Origin: Candidatus Amoebophilus asiaticus 5a2
GTDB lineage: Bacteria > Bacteroidota > Bacteroidia > Cytophagales > Amoebophilaceae
Length of the DNA stretch: 64,000 nucleotides
Assembly (NCBI RefSeq): GCF_000020565.1
Contig: NC_010830.1
Span: 310,001-374,000, forward strand
Direction: 5' to 3'
Below the pieces are notes generated by a model. The model saw only the letters and a list, made by a program, of their open reading frames with translations, searched no databases and was not told the DNA's origin. This document shows positions 4,330 to 49,994 of this stretch, piece by piece. Each line of letters starts with the position of its first letter. Position 1 is the first letter of the stretch. A program made the position numbers and the translations under genes.

Positions 4330-4345
4330 AGTTCCACGTGAAACA
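4330..4345. promoter_or_regulatory. parS-like ParB-binding site
   Basis: AGTTCCACGTGAAACA matches the bacterial parS consensus TGTTTCACGTGAAACA at 14 of 16 positions, with the right half-site and the CACGTG core perfect. It lies 35 bp before mnmG, in non-coding DNA. parA and parB are in the same window at 42-44 kb. A functional centromere near the origin is inferred. The internal change (T to C) also occurs in known parS variants; the first-base change weakens the left half. Confidence 0.7.
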
Positions 4346-29857: not shown

Positions 29858-30151
29858 ATGTCTATAGTAATAGAAGTTAAAGCTATACCTAAATCGAAAA
29901 TTTCAGCTATTACTATAGATAAATTAGGTAGGTTATGTATTCGAATAACTAGCGCCCCTGAAAACGGAAAAGCTAACCGAGAAATTATTAAGCTAATTGC
30001 AAAAACGCTCAAGCTTCCTCAAGCAAATGTAGAAATTATAGCTGGGCTTACAATAAAACTGAAAAGGATTAGAATAACAAGTTCCTTTTTAAATGAGGGC
30101 GAGCTTATGAATGCACTACTTCCATCTATGCAACAAAAACTATTTGAGTAA
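29858..30151 (+). CDS. DUF167 / YggU family protein
   Basis: The small 97-residue protein has the family signature APENGKANREIIKLIAKTLKLP in its middle (positions about 35-56) and the following strand with the conserved basic patch (KLKRIRITS). The function is unknown in the family. It lies 86 bp after uvrB on the same strand. Complete, with an ATG start. Confidence 0.88.
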   Translation: MSIVIEVKAIPKSKISAITIDKLGRLCIRITSAPENGKANREIIKLIAKTLKLPQANVEIIAGLTIKLKRIRITSSFLNEGELMNALLPSMQQKLFE

Positions 30152-30414
30152 CCAAATAAATCTTCATAAACTTCTTTAAATGCTTGCCAGTATACATCTT
30201 CTACTTTGGTAAGTAATCTACCAAGCATATATACACTACACCAAGCTAACTTTTGCTTCATAGCCCTTGTATATTACAAATAATTGTGTATAATATAAAT
30301 ATAGAATGCGCTTGTAAGCATTAGTACGGTATAAAAGAAATATTATTTGTCTTGATAACACTTTTTTATAAAAAAATTATTACATTATTAATAGTAGGTT
30401 AAAAACAAATAATT
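30152..30414. other. Intergenic region with possible coding remnant on the minus strand
   Basis: About 260 bp. On the minus strand, 30150-30261 reads as a protein-like fragment beginning MKQKLAWCSVYMLGRLLTKV and running into the DUF167 gene. It looks like the start of a lost gene, but no family was recognised. The right part is AT-rich upstream sequence of the chaB-like gene. Confidence 0.35.
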
Positions 30415-30651
30415 ATGCCTTATAAACATAATTCTGAATTACCTAAAAATGTAACTAATAATCTTCCGGAGCATGCACAAGATATTTACCGAGCAGCTTT
30501 TAATCATGCATGGGAGGAATATGAAGACCCCAGCAAGCGAAGAGAGGGTAGTAGTAGGGAAGAAGTAGCACGTCGCGTAGCTTGGTCGGCTGTAGAAAAA
30601 AAGTATAAAAAATCTGCAGATGGTACTTGGGTAGAAAAAAGTAATAAGTAA
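30415..30651 (+). CDS. ChaB family protein
   Basis: The 78-residue protein matches the ChaB domain: ELPKNVTNNLPEHAQDIYRA, then FNHAWEEY and the C-terminal ARRVAWSAVEKKYKK. E. coli ChaB was named a cation-transport regulator, but its real role is unsettled. It stands alone, next to the DnaA-box-rich gap. Confidence 0.88.
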   Translation: MPYKHNSELPKNVTNNLPEHAQDIYRAAFNHAWEEYEDPSKRREGSSREEVARRVAWSAVEKKYKKSADGTWVEKSNK

Positions 30652-30879
30652 TTCATTATATTAAAGTTGAAAAGGGCTTTTACTTTAACTTTAATCAATG
30701 AAACAGGATAGAATATTATGCATAAACCATGCATAAACAACTACGTATTCTATTTTTACTTCATTAACCTACTTATAAATACCAATCATATTTAACTTAT
30801 TTATATTTCTGACAATAAGCTTCCAAAACCATTCCTCATTTATTTATTAACACCAGCTTTAATATAAATATATATTTAA

Positions 30880-31235
30880 AAATTAAATATATTGTTTTTA
30901 TTAGTGTGTGGATTTGTGGAAAAGTTTAAATCTACCACAACATCTCATTAAAATTGTCAGCATTTAGTGTATAAGTCTTAAGTTATACACATATAATCCA
31001 ATTTAAAAACTTCTGTTAATCAGCCACATATATATATAATATGTGAATAACAAATTATAAAGCCGTTTTTTTATCCCTTTTATTTATTTGTGGATATAGA
31101 TGTGGATTGTAAAAGATAAAGGTGTAAAAATGAGCATTATTCAGTTTGCTAACTCTTTGAAAGTTGTTTTGGGTAAAAATAGCAGTTGTTTGTATACACT
31201 AATACACATTATACACAGAGTTATCCACACATAAT
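30880..31235. other. oriC: Candidate chromosomal replication origin (DnaA-box cluster)
   Basis: In a very AT-rich non-coding gap, four exact matches to TTATNCACA occur: TTATACACA at 30983-30991 and 31209-31217, TTATCCACA at 31221-31229, and the complement of TTATTCACA at 31042-31050. Near matches lie at about 30907, 30914, 30967 and 31089. The rest includes AT-only runs suited to unwinding (for example 30861-30900). The gap extends from 30652 to 31400 with no gene seen. dnaA is not adjacent, which is common in this phylum. The role is inferred from box density and nearby parS and parAB. Confidence 0.72.
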
Positions 31236-31480
31236 CTCTCAAGTAGGTTATTTATAAAAATTTATGCTAGATCAGCCAGTGAGCATGGCTAGGAAGTATT
31301 AAGTGAACAATATTCTTTATTATAGTTTAATGGTTGTAAGGGCGGTGGATATACTTAGAGCGTGTGGTTATCTGATAACTTACAGGAAGATTCTATATTA
31401 GAGCTGCTGCGAAAGAGATAAAATAAAGTAGGAATTTGAATAAAACAGAGAGAGAATCTTGCCAGTAGCGATGCTATTTG

Positions 31481-32029
31481 TTAAAAAGCATGCTTGAAGT
31501 TTATCATACCCGCTATAATATTAAAGCGCAGGTTATATTTCTTCTGAAAGTTACGGTAAACTTCTGACATAATCTTAAATACCTTGATCTCTCTTATCTT
31601 ATGCTCTACCTTCATGCGTATGGAGGATAGCTTTCTGTTATGTTCTTTCTGCTCCTTGGTTAATGGCCGCTTACGGCTCTTTTTATAGGGTATCATGACA
31701 TTGCTCTGTAGCTTTTGCCAGCCTTGATAACCACTATCTGCTAGCTTTAAGCTTTCCTTAGGTAAGAGTTTTTCTCCTTTACGGATTTTAAAGTCATGCA
31801 CTTTTCCTTTATGAGATTTGGATACAGAGAGTATTTTTCCATCTTCTCCCATCACTATCTCTGTTTTTATAGTATGTCTCTTTTTCTTGCCTGAATATGA
31901 TTTCTTTTGCTTTTTACTAGGTCTTTGCGTAGGCTGTTCACTCACATCTGCTAATATGCGCAATACCTTTTCTGAGGTTAAGCTGCGATCTTTTTTAATG
32001 CTAATCTTCTTAGCTAGTAATGGCTCCAT
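31481..32029 (-). CDS. IS5-family transposase, catalytic frame (OrfB)
   Basis: The 182-residue catalytic half has three likely DDE positions: Asp in ADVSEQPTQRP, Asp in LADSGYQGWQK, and Glu in KVEHKIREIKVF. The basic stretch SYSGKKKRHTIKTE is typical. It has its own ATG, overlapping OrfA in another frame. All catalytic residues are intact, so the element may still move if the frames can be joined. Confidence 0.82.
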   Translation of the reverse strand: MEPLLAKKISIKKDRSLTSEKVLRILADVSEQPTQRPSKKQKKSYSGKKKRHTIKTEIVMGEDGKILSVSKSHKGKVHDFKIRKGEKLLPKESLKLADSGYQGWQKLQSNVMIPYKKSRKRPLTKEQKEHNRKLSSIRMKVEHKIREIKVFKIMSEVYRNFQKKYNLRFNIIAGMINFKHAF

Positions 32030-32309
32030 TTTTCGCGAGCAAGCGGCATATGTTAGAGTTGTGTAAGTTAAACAAATAGCCTAAAAACACATGGCTAATA
32101 TAAGTGCGATAATACATGAGTACACAGAGCAATTTATCTTCCAAGGTAGGTAAATGACTCATCCTACCATGGCGCAGCTTACTCGATTCTAGCTCTTCAA
32201 AGAGAGGCCTTACTTTTAAAACTAATTTATCAAATGTTTCTATACTTAAGCCAGTTATTCTTCTAAAGTTATAGGGATGTTTGCTTATCCTGGTGTAGGT
32301 TAAATGCAT
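32010..32309 (-). CDS. IS5-family transposase, N-terminal frame (OrfA)
   Basis: The 99-residue protein has the helical N-terminal region of IS5-type transposases (FRRITGLSIETFDKLVLKV, then LPTLEDKLLCVLMYYRTY). It ends 20 nt inside the next frame. OrfB lies one base ahead, so joining them needs a +1 (or -2) slip near the GCGAAAAATGG run at about 32030-32040. Whether this is programmed or a mutation cannot be told from the sequence. Confidence 0.8.
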   Translation of the reverse strand: MHLTYTRISKHPYNFRRITGLSIETFDKLVLKVRPLFEELESSKLRHGRMSHLPTLEDKLLCVLMYYRTYISHVFLGYLFNLHNSNICRLLAKNGAITS

Positions 32310-32578
32310 ACTTATTCCTTTTATATAATAAGAATTACATCTTAACCCTTTTTATCTTCTTTGTCAACCTTTTTCGCAGCAGTTCTATTATTATCCTTTG
32401 ACGTGGCGGATATAAACTATACATACATAATGTATATAAGAAGGTTTTTCAGCATAATCTTTAAGTCTATGCTGGGAAAAAGTTAAAAATGAGTAAAATT
32501 GCTATTATATGTAAGTATTAAGGAGATTAAGCGTTCCAAAACATTATGCTTAATGTTATACCTTGATCATGGAAATTT

Positions 32579-33871
32579 TTAAGCAGTATAGCTTAAGCAA
32601 AACCCTGCTTGCCATATAAAACCTCGTTCTGCAACCATACCCTCTAGAAATCCTGATGTTTTATATAATATATTTCCGTGTAATGATAAGTAAGAATTAA
32701 CTTTGAGCTTGTTGTAAATACCTATCAGTCCACCCCAGTAGCTCTTATCTTCTAATGTATCAGATGCTTCTAATACTAGCTTAGGTTGATACCATAGATT
32801 AGTTGCTAGATCTAGCGTATAGTTTTTATACGTGAAAAGTTCATCTGTTTTACATCCAATACCACCATAGTATTGTGTATAAAAAGGTGACTTACCAATA
32901 TTTAGACTAATTAGAAAAGTTTTTTCTTGATTGTTAATGAAATTATCTAGGTAATAGCTTATTCCAAAGGGTGTTAAGCCTATTCTAATTATAGGCATAT
33001 AAGCTATATTTTTCCATGTTAAGCGGGGTATACTAAATACTTTCTCTTTTTTAAATAGATGTGCATAAAAAGACCAAATAGAAACATATAATACAGGATT
33101 AAGAAAAAATATAGCAGCACTTGATCGGAGTGTGCTTAGGTTTATTTTATCGGAGTCATGTTTGTGTTTTAGCGTTGACAAGTAGTGCAAAATATCATCA
33201 CCTAGGATTATGTTATCAGCAATTACTATATATCCTAATAGATTAGTAAATGCTTTAAAGAAAAGGTTGTAATTTCTATAATCTAAAGAGCCTGCTTTGA
33301 AATTCTTAAGAAGAAGTTCGTTAGCTAATACAGCATTTGCTTCATTGCCAGCTATTATTTTTAATAGTTCTTTATCAGTATGTGTGAAACGTTCTTCTAA
33401 TTCATCAAATATATTGTAATGTGTAATAGCACCTAACCCATTTACAGGTGTAAAAAAAGACGTTATGCCACCAAAAAGAAGGAAGAGTTCATATCCATCC
33501 ACCCGTTTTTTAAAGCTTCGTTGCCTAAATCCATGTCCATTTACTTCATGTGCAAACAGCATCAATAAATCATTACATAGGTTATTTCCAACCAATGTAG
33601 ACCATCTTATGAAAAATTTATCTTTAGCTCTATCAGAAATATACTTATCCTCTAGTTCATTTAAAAGATTTCTGCTTCCTCTAAGCCATGAAGCAGTAGC
33701 ATAAGGGCTTCCATAATGATCAAGAATAAATGACTTTTCTGTAAGTGGAGTGTGCTTTAATGTATCTGTGTCCGTATCTATAGCATATGTATAAATGGGT
33801 ATTAATAGTAATAAGAAGATTAATAAATATTTGCTGATGCTAGCTTTATAAGGTGTGGGTAGGGTATACAT
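32579..33871 (-). CDS. Exported protein with HExxxH motif and barrel-like C-terminus, unknown family
   Basis: The protein has 430 residues. A signal peptide is evident (hydrophobic run at about residues 14-28, likely cut after TYA30). Residues 108-113 read HEVNGH and a later NEAN (Glu177) could supply a third zinc ligand, suggesting a gluzincin-like peptidase. Two hydrophobic stretches follow near residues 205-225 and 255-275. The last 150 residues alternate polar and aromatic residues and end in an aromatic-rich strand, as in outer-membrane proteins. No family is recognised; the peptidase role is speculative. Confidence 0.7.
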   Translation of the reverse strand: MYTLPTPYKASISKYLLIFLLLLIPIYTYAIDTDTDTLKHTPLTEKSFILDHYGSPYATASWLRGSRNLLNELEDKYISDRAKDKFFIRWSTLVGNNLCNDLLMLFAHEVNGHGFRQRSFKKRVDGYELFLLFGGITSFFTPVNGLGAITHYNIFDELEERFTHTDKELLKIIAGNEANAVLANELLLKNFKAGSLDYRNYNLFFKAFTNLLGYIVIADNIILGDDILHYLSTLKHKHDSDKINLSTLRSSAAIFFLNPVLYVSIWSFYAHLFKKEKVFSIPRLTWKNIAYMPIIRIGLTPFGISYYLDNFINNQEKTFLISLNIGKSPFYTQYYGGIGCKTDELFTYKNYTLDLATNLWYQPKLVLEASDTLEDKSYWGGLIGIYNKLKVNSYLSLHGNILYKTSGFLEGMVAERGFIWQAGFCLSYTA

Positions 33872-42257: not shown

Positions 42258-43154
42258 TTATGGGAATAATATATGGGTAATTCTATTTAAATCTTGTACG
42301 TTGCTAAATGTGATACTAATTTCCCCATTTCCTTGCGAGTAGGTTCTTGCTTTTACAGGAGTAGCAAGCTGATTGGTAAGCTTAGTAGTTATCTCTTCTA
42401 GCATACTTGAAAAAGTGGCATTAGTGTTAATCTTCTTGTGGCTGGTTGCAGCTTGTGATTTGTTAGAAATATTTCTAGCTAGCTCTTCTACTTTTCTAAC
42501 AGATAAGTCTTGCTTAATTATTTCTTCTAAAATACCTAGCTGAGCCGTCATAGTACCCACATTAATTAATGCTCTAGCATGACCCATGCTTATTCTTTGA
42601 TCTCTTAATGCAATTTGTATGTCTGGAGGCAGCTTAAGAAGCCTAAGATAATTGTTAACAGTTGCTCTATTTTTACCTACCCGGTTTCCAAGTGTTTCTT
42701 GCTTAAGATTACATTCTGTTAGTAGTCTTTGGTAGCTTAGTGCAATTTCTATGGGGTTTAAGCTTTCTCGTTGTATGTTCTCAACCAAAGCCATTTCTAA
42801 CATTTGCTGGTCGTCTGCTATACGTATATAAGTTGGCACAGACTTCAAACCAGCCCTTCTAGATGCTTGCAGTCTCCGTTCTCCAGCAATCAGCTGATAC
42901 TTATTAGGGCCAATTTGTCGAATAGTCAGTGGCTGTATAACACCATGTACTTTAATAGATTCACTTAATTCGTTGAGAGCTTCCTCATCAAAAGTCTTTC
43001 TAGGTTGTAAAGGGTTAACTTCAATTTGTTCTATTGGAGTTTCTCTTAACGGATTAATTTCTCCTTTTTCTGTAAAGTAGCTACTATCTTGTAATAATGC
43101 TTGGAGGCCTCTTCCAAGTGCATTTTTTTTAGTTGTTGTTTCTTTCATATTCAT
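42258..43154 (-). CDS. parB: Chromosome-partitioning protein ParB
   Basis: This CTP-dependent DNA clamp loads at parS and spreads. The 298-residue protein has the N-terminal box NPLQPRKTF, the GERRLQASRRAGL CTP motif, the ENIQRESLNPIE segment, and a helix-turn-helix (QETLGNRVGKNRATVNNYLRL, about residues 150-170). The C-terminal dimer domain is present. It lies 5 bp after parA. A parS-like site is at 4330-4345. Confidence 0.96.
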   Translation of the reverse strand: MNMKETTTKKNALGRGLQALLQDSSYFTEKGEINPLRETPIEQIEVNPLQPRKTFDEEALNELSESIKVHGVIQPLTIRQIGPNKYQLIAGERRLQASRRAGLKSVPTYIRIADDQQMLEMALVENIQRESLNPIEIALSYQRLLTECNLKQETLGNRVGKNRATVNNYLRLLKLPPDIQIALRDQRISMGHARALINVGTMTAQLGILEEIIKQDLSVRKVEELARNISNKSQAATSHKKINTNATFSSMLEEITTKLTNQLATPVKARTYSQGNGEISITFSNVQDLNRITHILFP

Positions 43155-43159
43155 ACAAC

Positions 43160-43948
43160 TTATGCAGTTGTAGCTAAGCTTGAAGTAGCTTGCTTATTAA
43201 TAATTTCTTGTGCAAGATTTAGATAGCTGATTGCTCCTTTACTTTCTCCGTCATATAAAATAGCTGGCTTGCCAAAACCAGGAGCTTCACTTAGCTTAAT
43301 GTTTCTAGGTATGATAGTATCAAAAACCATTTTATTAAAATGGGTTTTGACTTCTTCTACAATCTGGTTAGAAAGCCGCAGTCTAGAATCATACATAGTC
43401 ATTAAAAGACCTTCTATTTCTAAATCTGGATTTAATCTAGTTTGAATAATCTTAATAGTATTTAGTAACTTACCTAGTCCTTCTAAGGCAAAATATTCAC
43501 ATTGAATAGGTATAATTAGAGAGTCAGCGGCTGTTAATGCATTGATAGTTAGTAAGCCTAAAGAAGGTGCACAGTCAATAATAATATAAGCATACTTATC
43601 TTTGATTTGTGCTAAAGTTCCTCTCATTCTTTCTTCCCTATGTTCAAAATTTATCATTTCGACTTCTGCACCTACTAGATTGATATGAGAAGGAATTATT
43701 TCTAAATAATCTAATGCTGTTTTTTGAACAACGTTTTGTGGTGCTATTTCACCAATCATACACTCGTAGATGCTACTAGTTACTTGTCTGGGATCTATTC
43801 CTAGCCCAGAAGTAGCATTAGCTTGTGGATCTACATCTGCTATTAAGGTCTTATGTTCCAAAACAGCTAGACTAGCAGCTAGATTAATGGCGGTGGTAGT
43901 TTTTCCAACTCCACCTTTCTGATTGGCAATGGCTATTATTTTTCCCAT
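43160..43948 (-). CDS. parA: Chromosome-partitioning ATPase ParA (Soj)
   Basis: This deviant Walker ATPase works with ParB in origin segregation. The 262-residue protein begins with [20 protein letters not shown], which carries the deviant Walker A, and has [11 protein letters not shown] and the Walker B region [18 protein letters not shown]. It is the first gene of the parA-parB-DUF5683-dapB-lepB run. The length and chromosomal neighbours argue against a plasmid copy. Confidence 0.97.
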
Positions 43949-47894: not shown

Positions 47895-49982
47895 TTAACC
47901 AATATTTCCCCATGAATTATCATTGCTGGTAGCTAGCTGGTTTTTTATTGTATAGTGGCTCGGCTGTATTAGCATAGGGTCTTTTTTTATAATTTCTTTT
48001 GCTGCCTCTCGTGCAATTTGTAAAATATGGCCATCACGTGCTACATCTGCAATTTTTAATTCTAATAAGCCGCTTTGTTGTACGCCCATTAAGTCTCCAG
48101 GGCCTCTAAGCCGCAAATCCATATCAGCTATTTCAAAGCCATTATTAGTGTGTACGAGAGCTTTTATGCGTTCTCTGCTCTTTTTATTCAGCTTATAATC
48201 GGTCATAAGGATACAATAGGCTTGATCTTGCCCCCTTCCTACTCTACCACGCAGTTGGTGCAACTGTGATAAGCCAAAACGGTCTGCATTTTCAATAACC
48301 ATAACGCTTGCATTGGGTACATTAACGCCTACCTCTATAACAGTAGTGGCTACCATAATTTTAGTCTCTCCTTTTACAAAACGCTGCATCTCGTAATCTT
48401 TATCGCTGGCTTTCATTCTTCCATGTACTATACTTAAAGGTACCTCAGGAAAAGCACGGCAAATACTTTCATAACCATCTATTAGGTTTTTATAGTCCAT
48501 TTTCTCAGACTCCTCAATAAGCGGATAAACCACATATACTTGCCTGCCTAGACTGATCTGATCTTTAACAAAGCGAAATACTCTAAGTCGTTGAGCATCA
48601 TAATAATGCACTGTTTTGATAGGCTTTCTTCCAGCAGGCATTTCATCAACCACTGACACATCTAAGTCTCCATATAAAGTCATTGCCAAGGTACGTGGTA
48701 TAGGTGTTGCAGACATAATCAACACATGAGGTACCGGTTGGACATCATCCCTTTGCCAAAATTTGGCCCTTTGCATTACGCCAAAACGATGTTGTTCATC
48801 AATGACTGCTAAGCCTAGATTCTTAAAAACCACATTCTCATTGATCAAGCTATGGGTGCCTACGATAATTTGTAATGTTCCTTGTGCCAACTCATCTAAA
48901 ATTTTTCTTCGTTCGCTCGTCTTAGTAGAACCGGTGAGAATACCTATTTGTAGCGAAAGAGGTGCTGCAAATTCTTGAAGTTTCTTATAATGTTGTTCTA
49001 CCAAGATCTCTGTAGGAGCCATCATCGCTACTTGTGCACCACTTCCTAATACAATAAGCATAGAAAGAAAAGCTACCATTGTTTTTCCACTTCCTACGTC
49101 GCCTTGCAAAAGTCTGTTCATTTGTTTGCCAGACTTTAAATCTGCATAAATTTCTTTTACTACTCGTTTTTGTGCGCCTGTTAATTCAAAAGGTATGACG
49201 TTTTGGTAGAAATCTTGCAAGAGTTTAGTGTCTTTATAGGCTGCCCCTATTTGTTTTTCAAGACGTAGTTGGCGTGCTTGTAATAGCCTTAGTTGTACGT
49301 AAAAAAGCTCTTCAAATTTTAAACGGAAGCGTGCTTTCTGTAATATCTCAGGTGTGGCTGGAAAATGGATGTTGGCTAAGGCAGTCTTTTTGTCTATAAT
49401 CTTATATTGTGCACATAAATCCTCTGGCAGGGTTTCTGGTAGATGTATAGGAAATTGTTCTATTAAGTTTGCTTGAACTCTTCTTATATATTTACTGTCA
49501 ATATAACTAGCTTTCAGCTTTTCTGTTGTATGGTAAACAGGTATTAAAGTTTTTTCCTGCGTTGTTTGCGCAGTGAATATTTCCATTTCAGGATGTACAA
49601 TGGTATAACAACTATTATATACAGTTGGTTTTCCAAAAAGTTGGTACAATATGCCAGGTCTTAATTGTTTAAGTATACCATTTATCTTTTGAAACCAAAC
49701 CAGTGATATAACTCCTGTTTCATCTTTTAAAGTTGCAACAAGTCTTTTCTTGCCTGTTGTAATAATTTTAGGTGATTGAATGACTCCTTTAAGCTGTACA
49801 TAGGGTAAGTCTTCTCGTACATCTGCTATATTATGAAAGCAAGTACGATCTTCATAACGAAAAGGATAGTGTTGGATGAGATCAGCTAGATTATAGATCT
49901 GAAGTTCCTCTTGAAGTAAGACTGCTTTTTTAGGCCCTACACCTTTTAAATATTCTATTGGGGTTTGAAATGTTAACTGCAT
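47895..49982 (-). CDS. recG: ATP-dependent DNA helicase RecG
   Basis: This enzyme remodels stalled forks and recombination intermediates. It has 695 residues from the ATG at 49982 (MQLTFQTPIEYLKGVGPKKA); another ATG four codons earlier is possible. The N-terminal wedge/OB domain is followed by Walker A GDVGSGKTMVAF, the DEQHRFGV box, SATPIPRTLAMTLYGDLDVS and QLRGRVGRG. Complete and apparently monocistronic. Confidence 0.96.
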   Translation of the reverse strand: MQLTFQTPIEYLKGVGPKKAVLLQEELQIYNLADLIQHYPFRYEDRTCFHNIADVREDLPYVQLKGVIQSPKIITTGKKRLVATLKDETGVISLVWFQKINGILKQLRPGILYQLFGKPTVYNSCYTIVHPEMEIFTAQTTQEKTLIPVYHTTEKLKASYIDSKYIRRVQANLIEQFPIHLPETLPEDLCAQYKIIDKKTALANIHFPATPEILQKARFRLKFEELFYVQLRLLQARQLRLEKQIGAAYKDTKLLQDFYQNVIPFELTGAQKRVVKEIYADLKSGKQMNRLLQGDVGSGKTMVAFLSMLIVLGSGAQVAMMAPTEILVEQHYKKLQEFAAPLSLQIGILTGSTKTSERRKILDELAQGTLQIIVGTHSLINENVVFKNLGLAVIDEQHRFGVMQRAKFWQRDDVQPVPHVLIMSATPIPRTLAMTLYGDLDVSVVDEMPAGRKPIKTVHYYDAQRLRVFRFVKDQISLGRQVYVVYPLIEESEKMDYKNLIDGYESICRAFPEVPLSIVHGRMKASDKDYEMQRFVKGETKIMVATTVIEVGVNVPNASVMVIENADRFGLSQLHQLRGRVGRGQDQAYCILMTDYKLNKKSRERIKALVHTNNGFEIADMDLRLRGPGDLMGVQQSGLLELKIADVARDGHILQIAREAAKEIIKKDPMLIQPSHYTIKNQLATSNDNSWGNIG

Positions 49983-49994
49983 GCATATAGGCAA

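Follow-up and report, generated by a model that had tools for sequence, protein, structure and literature searches.

A candidate chromosomal replication origin beside chaB in Candidatus Amoebophilus asiaticus 5a2, with a core that appears to have changed gene neighbourhood within its family

Where does replication of the Candidatus Amoebophilus asiaticus 5a2 chromosome begin? The question is raised by a short AT-rich gap next to chaB, in the 64,000-nucleotide stretch of contig NC_010830.1 analysed here (positions 310,001 to 374,000; hereafter the window, whose own numbering is used for all positions given in full below 64,000). The contig begins with dnaA, 341 kb from the gap. An earlier note on this DNA had proposed that the origin lies in the gap, away from dnaA, on the basis of clustered DnaA boxes and AT-only runs. 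We consider it highly probable that the gap is the chromosomal oriC, as a candidate called from sequence, because it holds the sole cluster of exact boxes among the genomic sites listed, has an unstable AT run next to a conserved box pair and coincides with a fitted switch in strand composition, and because a dif-like site lies nearly opposite and the boxes are conserved in a second Amoebophilus genome. Comparison across relatives supports the reading of a DnaA-dependent oriC whose core would have changed gene neighbourhood within the family.

The four exact TTATNCACA boxes are all where the earlier note had put them (Table 1), and its several one-mismatch boxes were also recovered: nine boxes with at most one mismatch span 30844-31229. 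Over the whole gap (30652-31396), dinucleotide shuffles contain on average 0.09 exact boxes against the 4 present, a number that none of 2000 shuffles attained, and 2.0 boxes with at most one mismatch against the 11 present, which none of 500 shuffles attained. The word as such is without genome-wide enrichment, since the genome, a single contig of 1,884,364 bp, has 102 exact matches and 152 matches to the reversed control; 11 of the exact sites fall in the window. Among the 100 of 102 matches listed, the chaB gap is the sole group of at least three exact boxes within 250 bp and pairs occur at two further places, so that the denser cluster which might have spoken for an origin elsewhere was looked for and not found in that set; the other two matches are outside the window, the contig's last 5.4 kb, its first 2.9 kb and the 24 stretches compared below. 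If sites are presumed to be placed uniformly, a group of four would arise from 102 randomly placed sites with a probability of 4e-5. When boxes were scored in 400-bp windows over 537,264 bases of the genome, the top nine windows were all in the chaB gap. The DnaA of this organism exceeds the TIGR00362 cut-off.

Table 1. Positions of the candidate origin, its elements and neighbouring features in the window.
Feature	Position	Strand	Remarks
chaB, left neighbour	30415-30651	+	Pfam ChaB PF06150, E=2e-23; ortholog in G001 adjoins the same gap
Intergenic gap with candidate oriC	30652-31396		Between the 3' ends of chaB (+) and an IS5-type transposase ORF (-)
AT-only run, 36 bp, candidate DUE	30858-30893		Longest AT-only run of the window
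TTGT (30892-30895) and TTATTAG (30898-30904; reverse complement CTAATAA)	30892-30904	+	E. coli-type single-strand DUE motifs adjoining the box pair
DnaA-box core pair, 8-bp spacing	30907-30923	-	TTTTCCACA at 30915-30923 and AAATCCACA at 30907-30915; 17-mer search and alignment of 14 cores
DnaA box, 1 mismatch, TTATACACT	30966-30974	-	Pattern search
DnaA box, exact, TTATACACA	30983-30991	+	Conserved in G001
DnaA box, exact, TTATTCACA	31042-31050	-	One mismatch in G001
DnaA box, 1 mismatch, ATATCCACA	31089-31097	-	Pattern search
DnaA box, 1 mismatch, TAATACACA	31200-31208	+	Pattern search
DnaA box, exact, TTATACACA, left member of a pair with 12-bp spacing	31209-31217	+	Pair kept in G001
DnaA box, exact, TTATCCACA, right member of that pair	31221-31229	+	Kept in G001
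IS5-type insertion sequence, outside the candidate origin	~31397-~32389		Transposase in two - strand ORFs
430-aa ORF, right neighbour past the IS	32579-33871	-	No Pfam match; ortholog in G001 borders the gap
parB (42258-43154) and parA (43160-43948)	42258-43948	-	NCBIfam ParB/RepB/Spo0J above cut-off; ParA-like matches below cut-offs
parS-like site, AGTTCCACGTGAAACA	4330-4345		Best in the genome; 2 mismatches to the consensus
recG	47895-49994	-	17 kb from the core in this genome

The AT content of 30880-31235 is 74%, compared with 64% across the window, and the least stable 40-bp stretch of the window starts at 30862, with a level reached by 0.004% of the 528,025 genome positions examined. Most of that stretch is covered by the 36-bp AT-only run. 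The earlier note had described AT-only runs within non-coding DNA at 30880-31235; the non-coding character of the region stood, as no ORF of at least 70 aa crosses the boxes at 30844-31229, while the 36-bp run begins 22 bp to the left of the interval. A core module can be written as TTTTCCACAAATCCACA, 2 to 6 bp, TAATAA and AT-rich DNA. Its organization resembles that of an E. coli-type oriC in that a TTATNCACA cluster adjoins an AT-rich DUE and in that TTATT and TTGT, which PMC10316083 names as the sequences that DnaA binds in the E. coli DUE, lie by the box pair; it differs in that the candidate is 341 kb from dnaA, in a convergent gap by chaB.

A second point of comparison is the basal unwinding system (BUS) of B. 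subtilis, in which, according to the excerpted part of PMC8287927, tandem boxes are followed by DnaA-trios, with a distance from the better box that peaks at 10-13 bp, and for which the published search demands, no farther than 16 bp from a box, three or more 3'-NAN-5' triplets. In the tandem pair of A. asiaticus, TTTTCCACA, with one mismatch, is farther from the trio-like triplets and AAATCCACA, with two, is nearer, as in a BUS, and the first 3'-GAT-5' triplet is 10 bp from TTTTCCACA (30905-30914), within the BUS spacing. The triplets read at the core are GAT, TAT and then TTT; with only two consecutive trio-like triplets against the three required, the site fails the published search rule. 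The candidate also differs from the B. subtilis BUS in not adjoining dnaA, but resembles it in that the same core with TAATAA is present between dnaA and dnaN in three genomes (see below). Origin architecture is also treated in the portions of PMC6323995 and PMC6669920 that were available, and our literature search found no paper on a DnaA-trio in Bacteroidetes.

Strand composition provides a view of the chromosome that does not involve boxes. We fitted a two-switch model on a 12.6-kb grid to the composition of third codon positions, treating the two gene directions apart and using 349 ORFs from 20 and then 4 further stretches that make up 28% of the chromosome. For this 28%, the best origin is the grid point at 339186, the sole origin grid point within 3 lnL units, and the terminus falls at 1344180. 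Fixing the origin at the site (341 kb) yields a gain of 126.3, equal to the best, against 61.6 for dnaA at position 1, which supports, at the level of sequence, the interpretation that the origin is here and away from dnaA. In an unsigned version of the fit, which also allows the terminus to be read with the opposite sign, 7 of 150 grid positions match or beat the site. The skew check suggested by the earlier note thus had two outcomes: the gene-direction-corrected fit agrees with the site, but uncorrected and local measures do not. In a contiguous 209-kb stretch, raw cumulative GC skew reaches its minimum at 403 kb, 62 kb off, which speaks against an origin here, and a one-switch fit confined to this stretch has a flat-topped peak at 305 kb, about 36 kb off, with its 12 best break points at 287-332 kb and 341 kb not among them. 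Among the sampled stretches, those from 1356 kb across the contig end to 245 kb have a negative raw skew and those from 374 to 1282 kb a positive one, which is below 0.01 in two of the latter; between these, it is slightly positive at 290-310 kb (0.021) and slightly negative in both halves of the window (-0.021 and -0.005).

The opposite end of the chromosome was approached through dif. An initial search with a dif-like pattern at two mismatches gave 19 matches compared with 13 for the control and therefore proves nothing alone. One of these matches, extended to a 23-mer (1317734-1317756), is single in this genome. With three mismatches allowed, the 23-mer is present in 19 of 24 genomes of the order, a count that takes in the present genome, compared with 1 of 24 (one match) for the reversed control. 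The arms from the candidate origin to this site measure 976.8 and 907.5 kb, placing the two nearly opposite each other. Around dnaA, bases 1-2900 are free of exact boxes, and the final 5.4 kb of the contig contain two single ones.

A mechanical 78-aa ORF antisense to chaB (30504-30740) reaches the left edge of the gap, and Rfam has no match at E<=0.1 in 30000-32600. To the right, the transposase ORF that adjoins the gap ends at 31481 on the - strand; the best family for the element is NF033581 (IS5 transposase), below its cut-off. Window positions 31200-32580 match at least 48 places in the genome, itself included, with 40 of 111 candidates scored, and full-length copies end near query positions 198 and 1190, which sets the element at about 31397-32389. 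The last box is thus 168 bp from its edge, bearing out the claim that an IS5 element sits within 200 bp of the putative origin, and the element is outside the blocks kept in a second Amoebophilus genome (G001). Several copies are at 100% identity, and the IS is young or gene-converted. In the accessible part of PMC3196728, a survey of A. asiaticus IS elements, the elements are described as transpositionally inactive and the skew as regular, and skew shifts at origin and terminus are mentioned. As for the idea that the origin is near par genes, parAB lies 11 kb from the candidate; the parS-like site is 27 kb from the gap, as is mnmG, also to the left, and the parS consensus at up to three mismatches finds 5 places in the genome compared with 8 for the reversed control.

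Is the cluster retained in relatives? In G001, which is of the same genus, tblastn finds the window's genes from mnmG to groEL in unchanged order with the same gap by chaB; the window's nudix gene was not found in that region by the same search, and recG of G001 is on a different contig. There the gap between chaB and the 430-aa ORF measures 0.8 kb, and the orthologous region has no match to the 182-aa IS transposase ORF. When the two gaps are aligned, the DUE together with the 17-bp pair is kept in otherwise diverged DNA, as are the box at 30983, both boxes of the 31209/31221 pair and, with one change, the 31042 box. Among the 76 sites listed for G001, this gap is the sole group of three boxes within 250 bp. 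Since the cluster lies between converging genes in both genomes, it is not a promoter region. In a third Amoebophilus genome, G002, a 316-bp stretch by prmC (L027:6660-6975, contig C71) contains six exact boxes and a core related to that of the window, and this cluster is likely the origin of G002 in another gene neighbourhood. The chaB-side place is therefore kept in two of the three Amoebophilus genomes compared, G002 being the exception. The 430-aa ORF itself, which is 65% identical to its G001 ortholog, has no relative in a protein scan of the genome contigs.

The core reaches beyond the genus. At up to one mismatch, the 17-mer TGTGGATTTGTGGAAAA is present in 8 of 21 family genomes, two of them being this genome and G001, both sources of the 17-mer, and in none of the 21 with the reversed control. 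It is by chaB in these two genomes and just upstream of recG in the other six. A core score, devised after the core had been seen and hence descriptive, was applied to the DNA upstream of the best recG of all 20 relatives; eight of them (G004, G007, G011, G015, G016, G018, G019 and G020) reach at least 17, compared with 1 of 1120 control chunks of 700 bp. G010 and G003 score 16, as do 7 control chunks, and the G003 score appears to be a chance match; in G013 the box pair is accompanied by a TAATAA in a shifted position, for a score of 14 at that place. No core was found upstream of recG in 8-9 of the 20 relatives, including G001, G002, G005, G006, G008, G009 and G014, with 103 bases examined in G012, and recG of A. 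asiaticus 5a2 has no box with at most one mismatch in the 700 bases upstream. Exact-box pairs at most 20 bp apart occur in 10 of 37 genomes compared with 3 of 37 for the reversed control, several of them away from the core. The recG-side core of Cardinium-like and other Amoebophilaceae shares with the chaB-side core the box pair, its spacing, TAATAA and the AT-rich flank; it differs in place, ending about 90-320 bp before the aligned recG start in six genomes.

Composition in the relatives bears on whether the recG-side core is an origin. In G013, assembled as one contig, the fit places the origin at 748 kb (692-771 kb within 3 lnL units) and the terminus at 80 kb, with a dif-like site at 73 kb; the core, at 782 kb, is 10-34 kb from the fit and 10 kb beyond the 3-lnL range, and costs 16 lnL units. 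For G016 the fit does not discriminate, since 145 of 150 grid positions do as well as the core. As an origin in relatives, then, the core finds a near match in G013 alone, and the G016 fit says nothing. Neither genome has three exact boxes within 250 bp, so the core there lacks an exact-box cluster. The most economical reading of the chaB and recG places would be a change of neighbourhood by the core, and we infer an inherited module that in Amoebophilus lies away from its relatives' place upstream of recG.

The interval between dnaA and dnaN is a canonical position of a bacterial origin. When 84,980 genomes were scanned for exact occurrences of TTTTCCACAAATCCAC followed by 2-6 bases and TAATAA, 18 loci were obtained, three of which are in this very interval, in Acholeplasmatales, Erysipelotrichaceae and Anaeroplasmataceae, with the flanking genes confirmed by Pfam in all three. 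Another twelve are in Algoriphagus, Belliella or Mariniradius (L163, L168, L172 and L178 among them). In all twelve an ORF ends 300-346 bp before the core, in nine a 583-586-aa ORF starts 145-194 bp after the core start, and where visible the core precedes an AMP-binding enzyme gene (Pfam on one, L163); this place is a candidate oriC of that group. The remaining three loci are in one Cardinium, one Saprospiraceae and one Dysgonomonas, the last inside a mechanical ORF.

Other explanations of the chaB gap have to be weighed against these data. Clusters of DnaA boxes also occur at sites of the datA/DARS type, and the gap could be such a titration or regulatory site near the origin, with replication starting at another point of the same 50-100 kb. 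In favour of this are mnmG and the parS-like site, 27 kb to the left, and the local one-switch peak at 305 kb. We nevertheless regard this as quite unlikely, given that no second group of three exact boxes turned up among the 100 of 102 matches listed, that the whole-chromosome fit peaks at 339 kb, and that the cluster carries a DUE with a box pair at its edge, which titration does not need, in the form of a core found between dnaA and dnaN in three genomes.

Strand composition changes slowly, and the fit might thus record an oriC that was active when the composition formed, initiation having since passed to another place such as the dnaA region; the adjoining IS, young or gene-converted as judged from its several identical copies, is compatible with this reading. 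We hold such a former origin to be very improbable, since boxes and DUE have been kept amid diverged DNA in G001 and the dnaA region offers only its two single boxes in the contig's last 5.4 kb and no exact one in bases 1-2900. That an AT-rich convergent gap should have acquired box-like words by chance can scarcely be credited: the missing genome-wide enrichment of TTATNCACA (102 against 152) speaks for chance, but the shuffles, the uniform-placement probability, the conservation in G001, the skew fit and the dif-like site all argue otherwise.

If the gap is oriC, as we favour, its layout suggests how initiation may proceed. ATP-DnaA would fill the boxes between 30983 and 31229, and the filled boxes would nucleate a DnaA oligomer on the tandem pair at 30907-30923. 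The oligomer would then melt the AT-rich DNA just to the left, about 30858-30904, and might hold one strand via TTATT/TTGT or via the trio-like triplets. The replicative helicase would next be loaded at the melted stretch, and two forks would depart in both directions toward dif near 1.318 Mb. The IS adjoining the origin would have landed outside its conserved part.

A pinned origin would give replication mapping, oriC plasmids and read-based estimates of growth rate a place to start from in an obligate intracellular symbiont. The kind of site is known; what is new is the pinned place of this very probable oriC, the shared core and its apparent change of neighbours. The chaB-side site is unnamed in the literature searched, including the accessible portions of PMC3196728, PMC3486910, PMC10117132 and PMC9997750, a search whose bounds left DoriC and the 2010 genome paper outside. 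For two Cardinium genomes, putative origins distant from dnaA are reported in the available text of PMC12842512, and the shared core could serve as a sequence handle on dnaA-distant origins such as these and the present one; it also makes origin relocation testable by comparison. Whether the Amoebophilaceae, and perhaps the Cytophagales at large, share one origin core that has moved as a unit, by recG, chaB or prmC, and still works as an origin is a proposition to which we give even chances. If true, the origin would amount to a mobile cassette, in a lineage where IS elements have shaped the genomes.

Several observations in the relatives stand beside this account. In G017 (L112, contig C5), a core scoring 17 lies before a second, stop-interrupted recG copy and not before the intact one. 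G001 has a facing pair of exact boxes 49 bp apart on three contigs (C21:3/52, C44:15228/15277 and C80:9013/9062), probably as part of a repeated element. We considered ddl as a marker of the family origin and rejected it, as 14 loci around ddl in relatives are without a box cluster; the ddl neighbourhood of G003 is therefore not a family rule. Three boxes near ddl in G019 were dropped because the part of an ORF that contains them is repeated. In G003 itself, six exact TTATCCACA boxes (L028:11113-11468), without the shared core, occupy a gap bordered on one side by ddl/mnmG and on the other by a 704-aa ORF, and this ORF has a homolog elsewhere in the genome of A. asiaticus 5a2.
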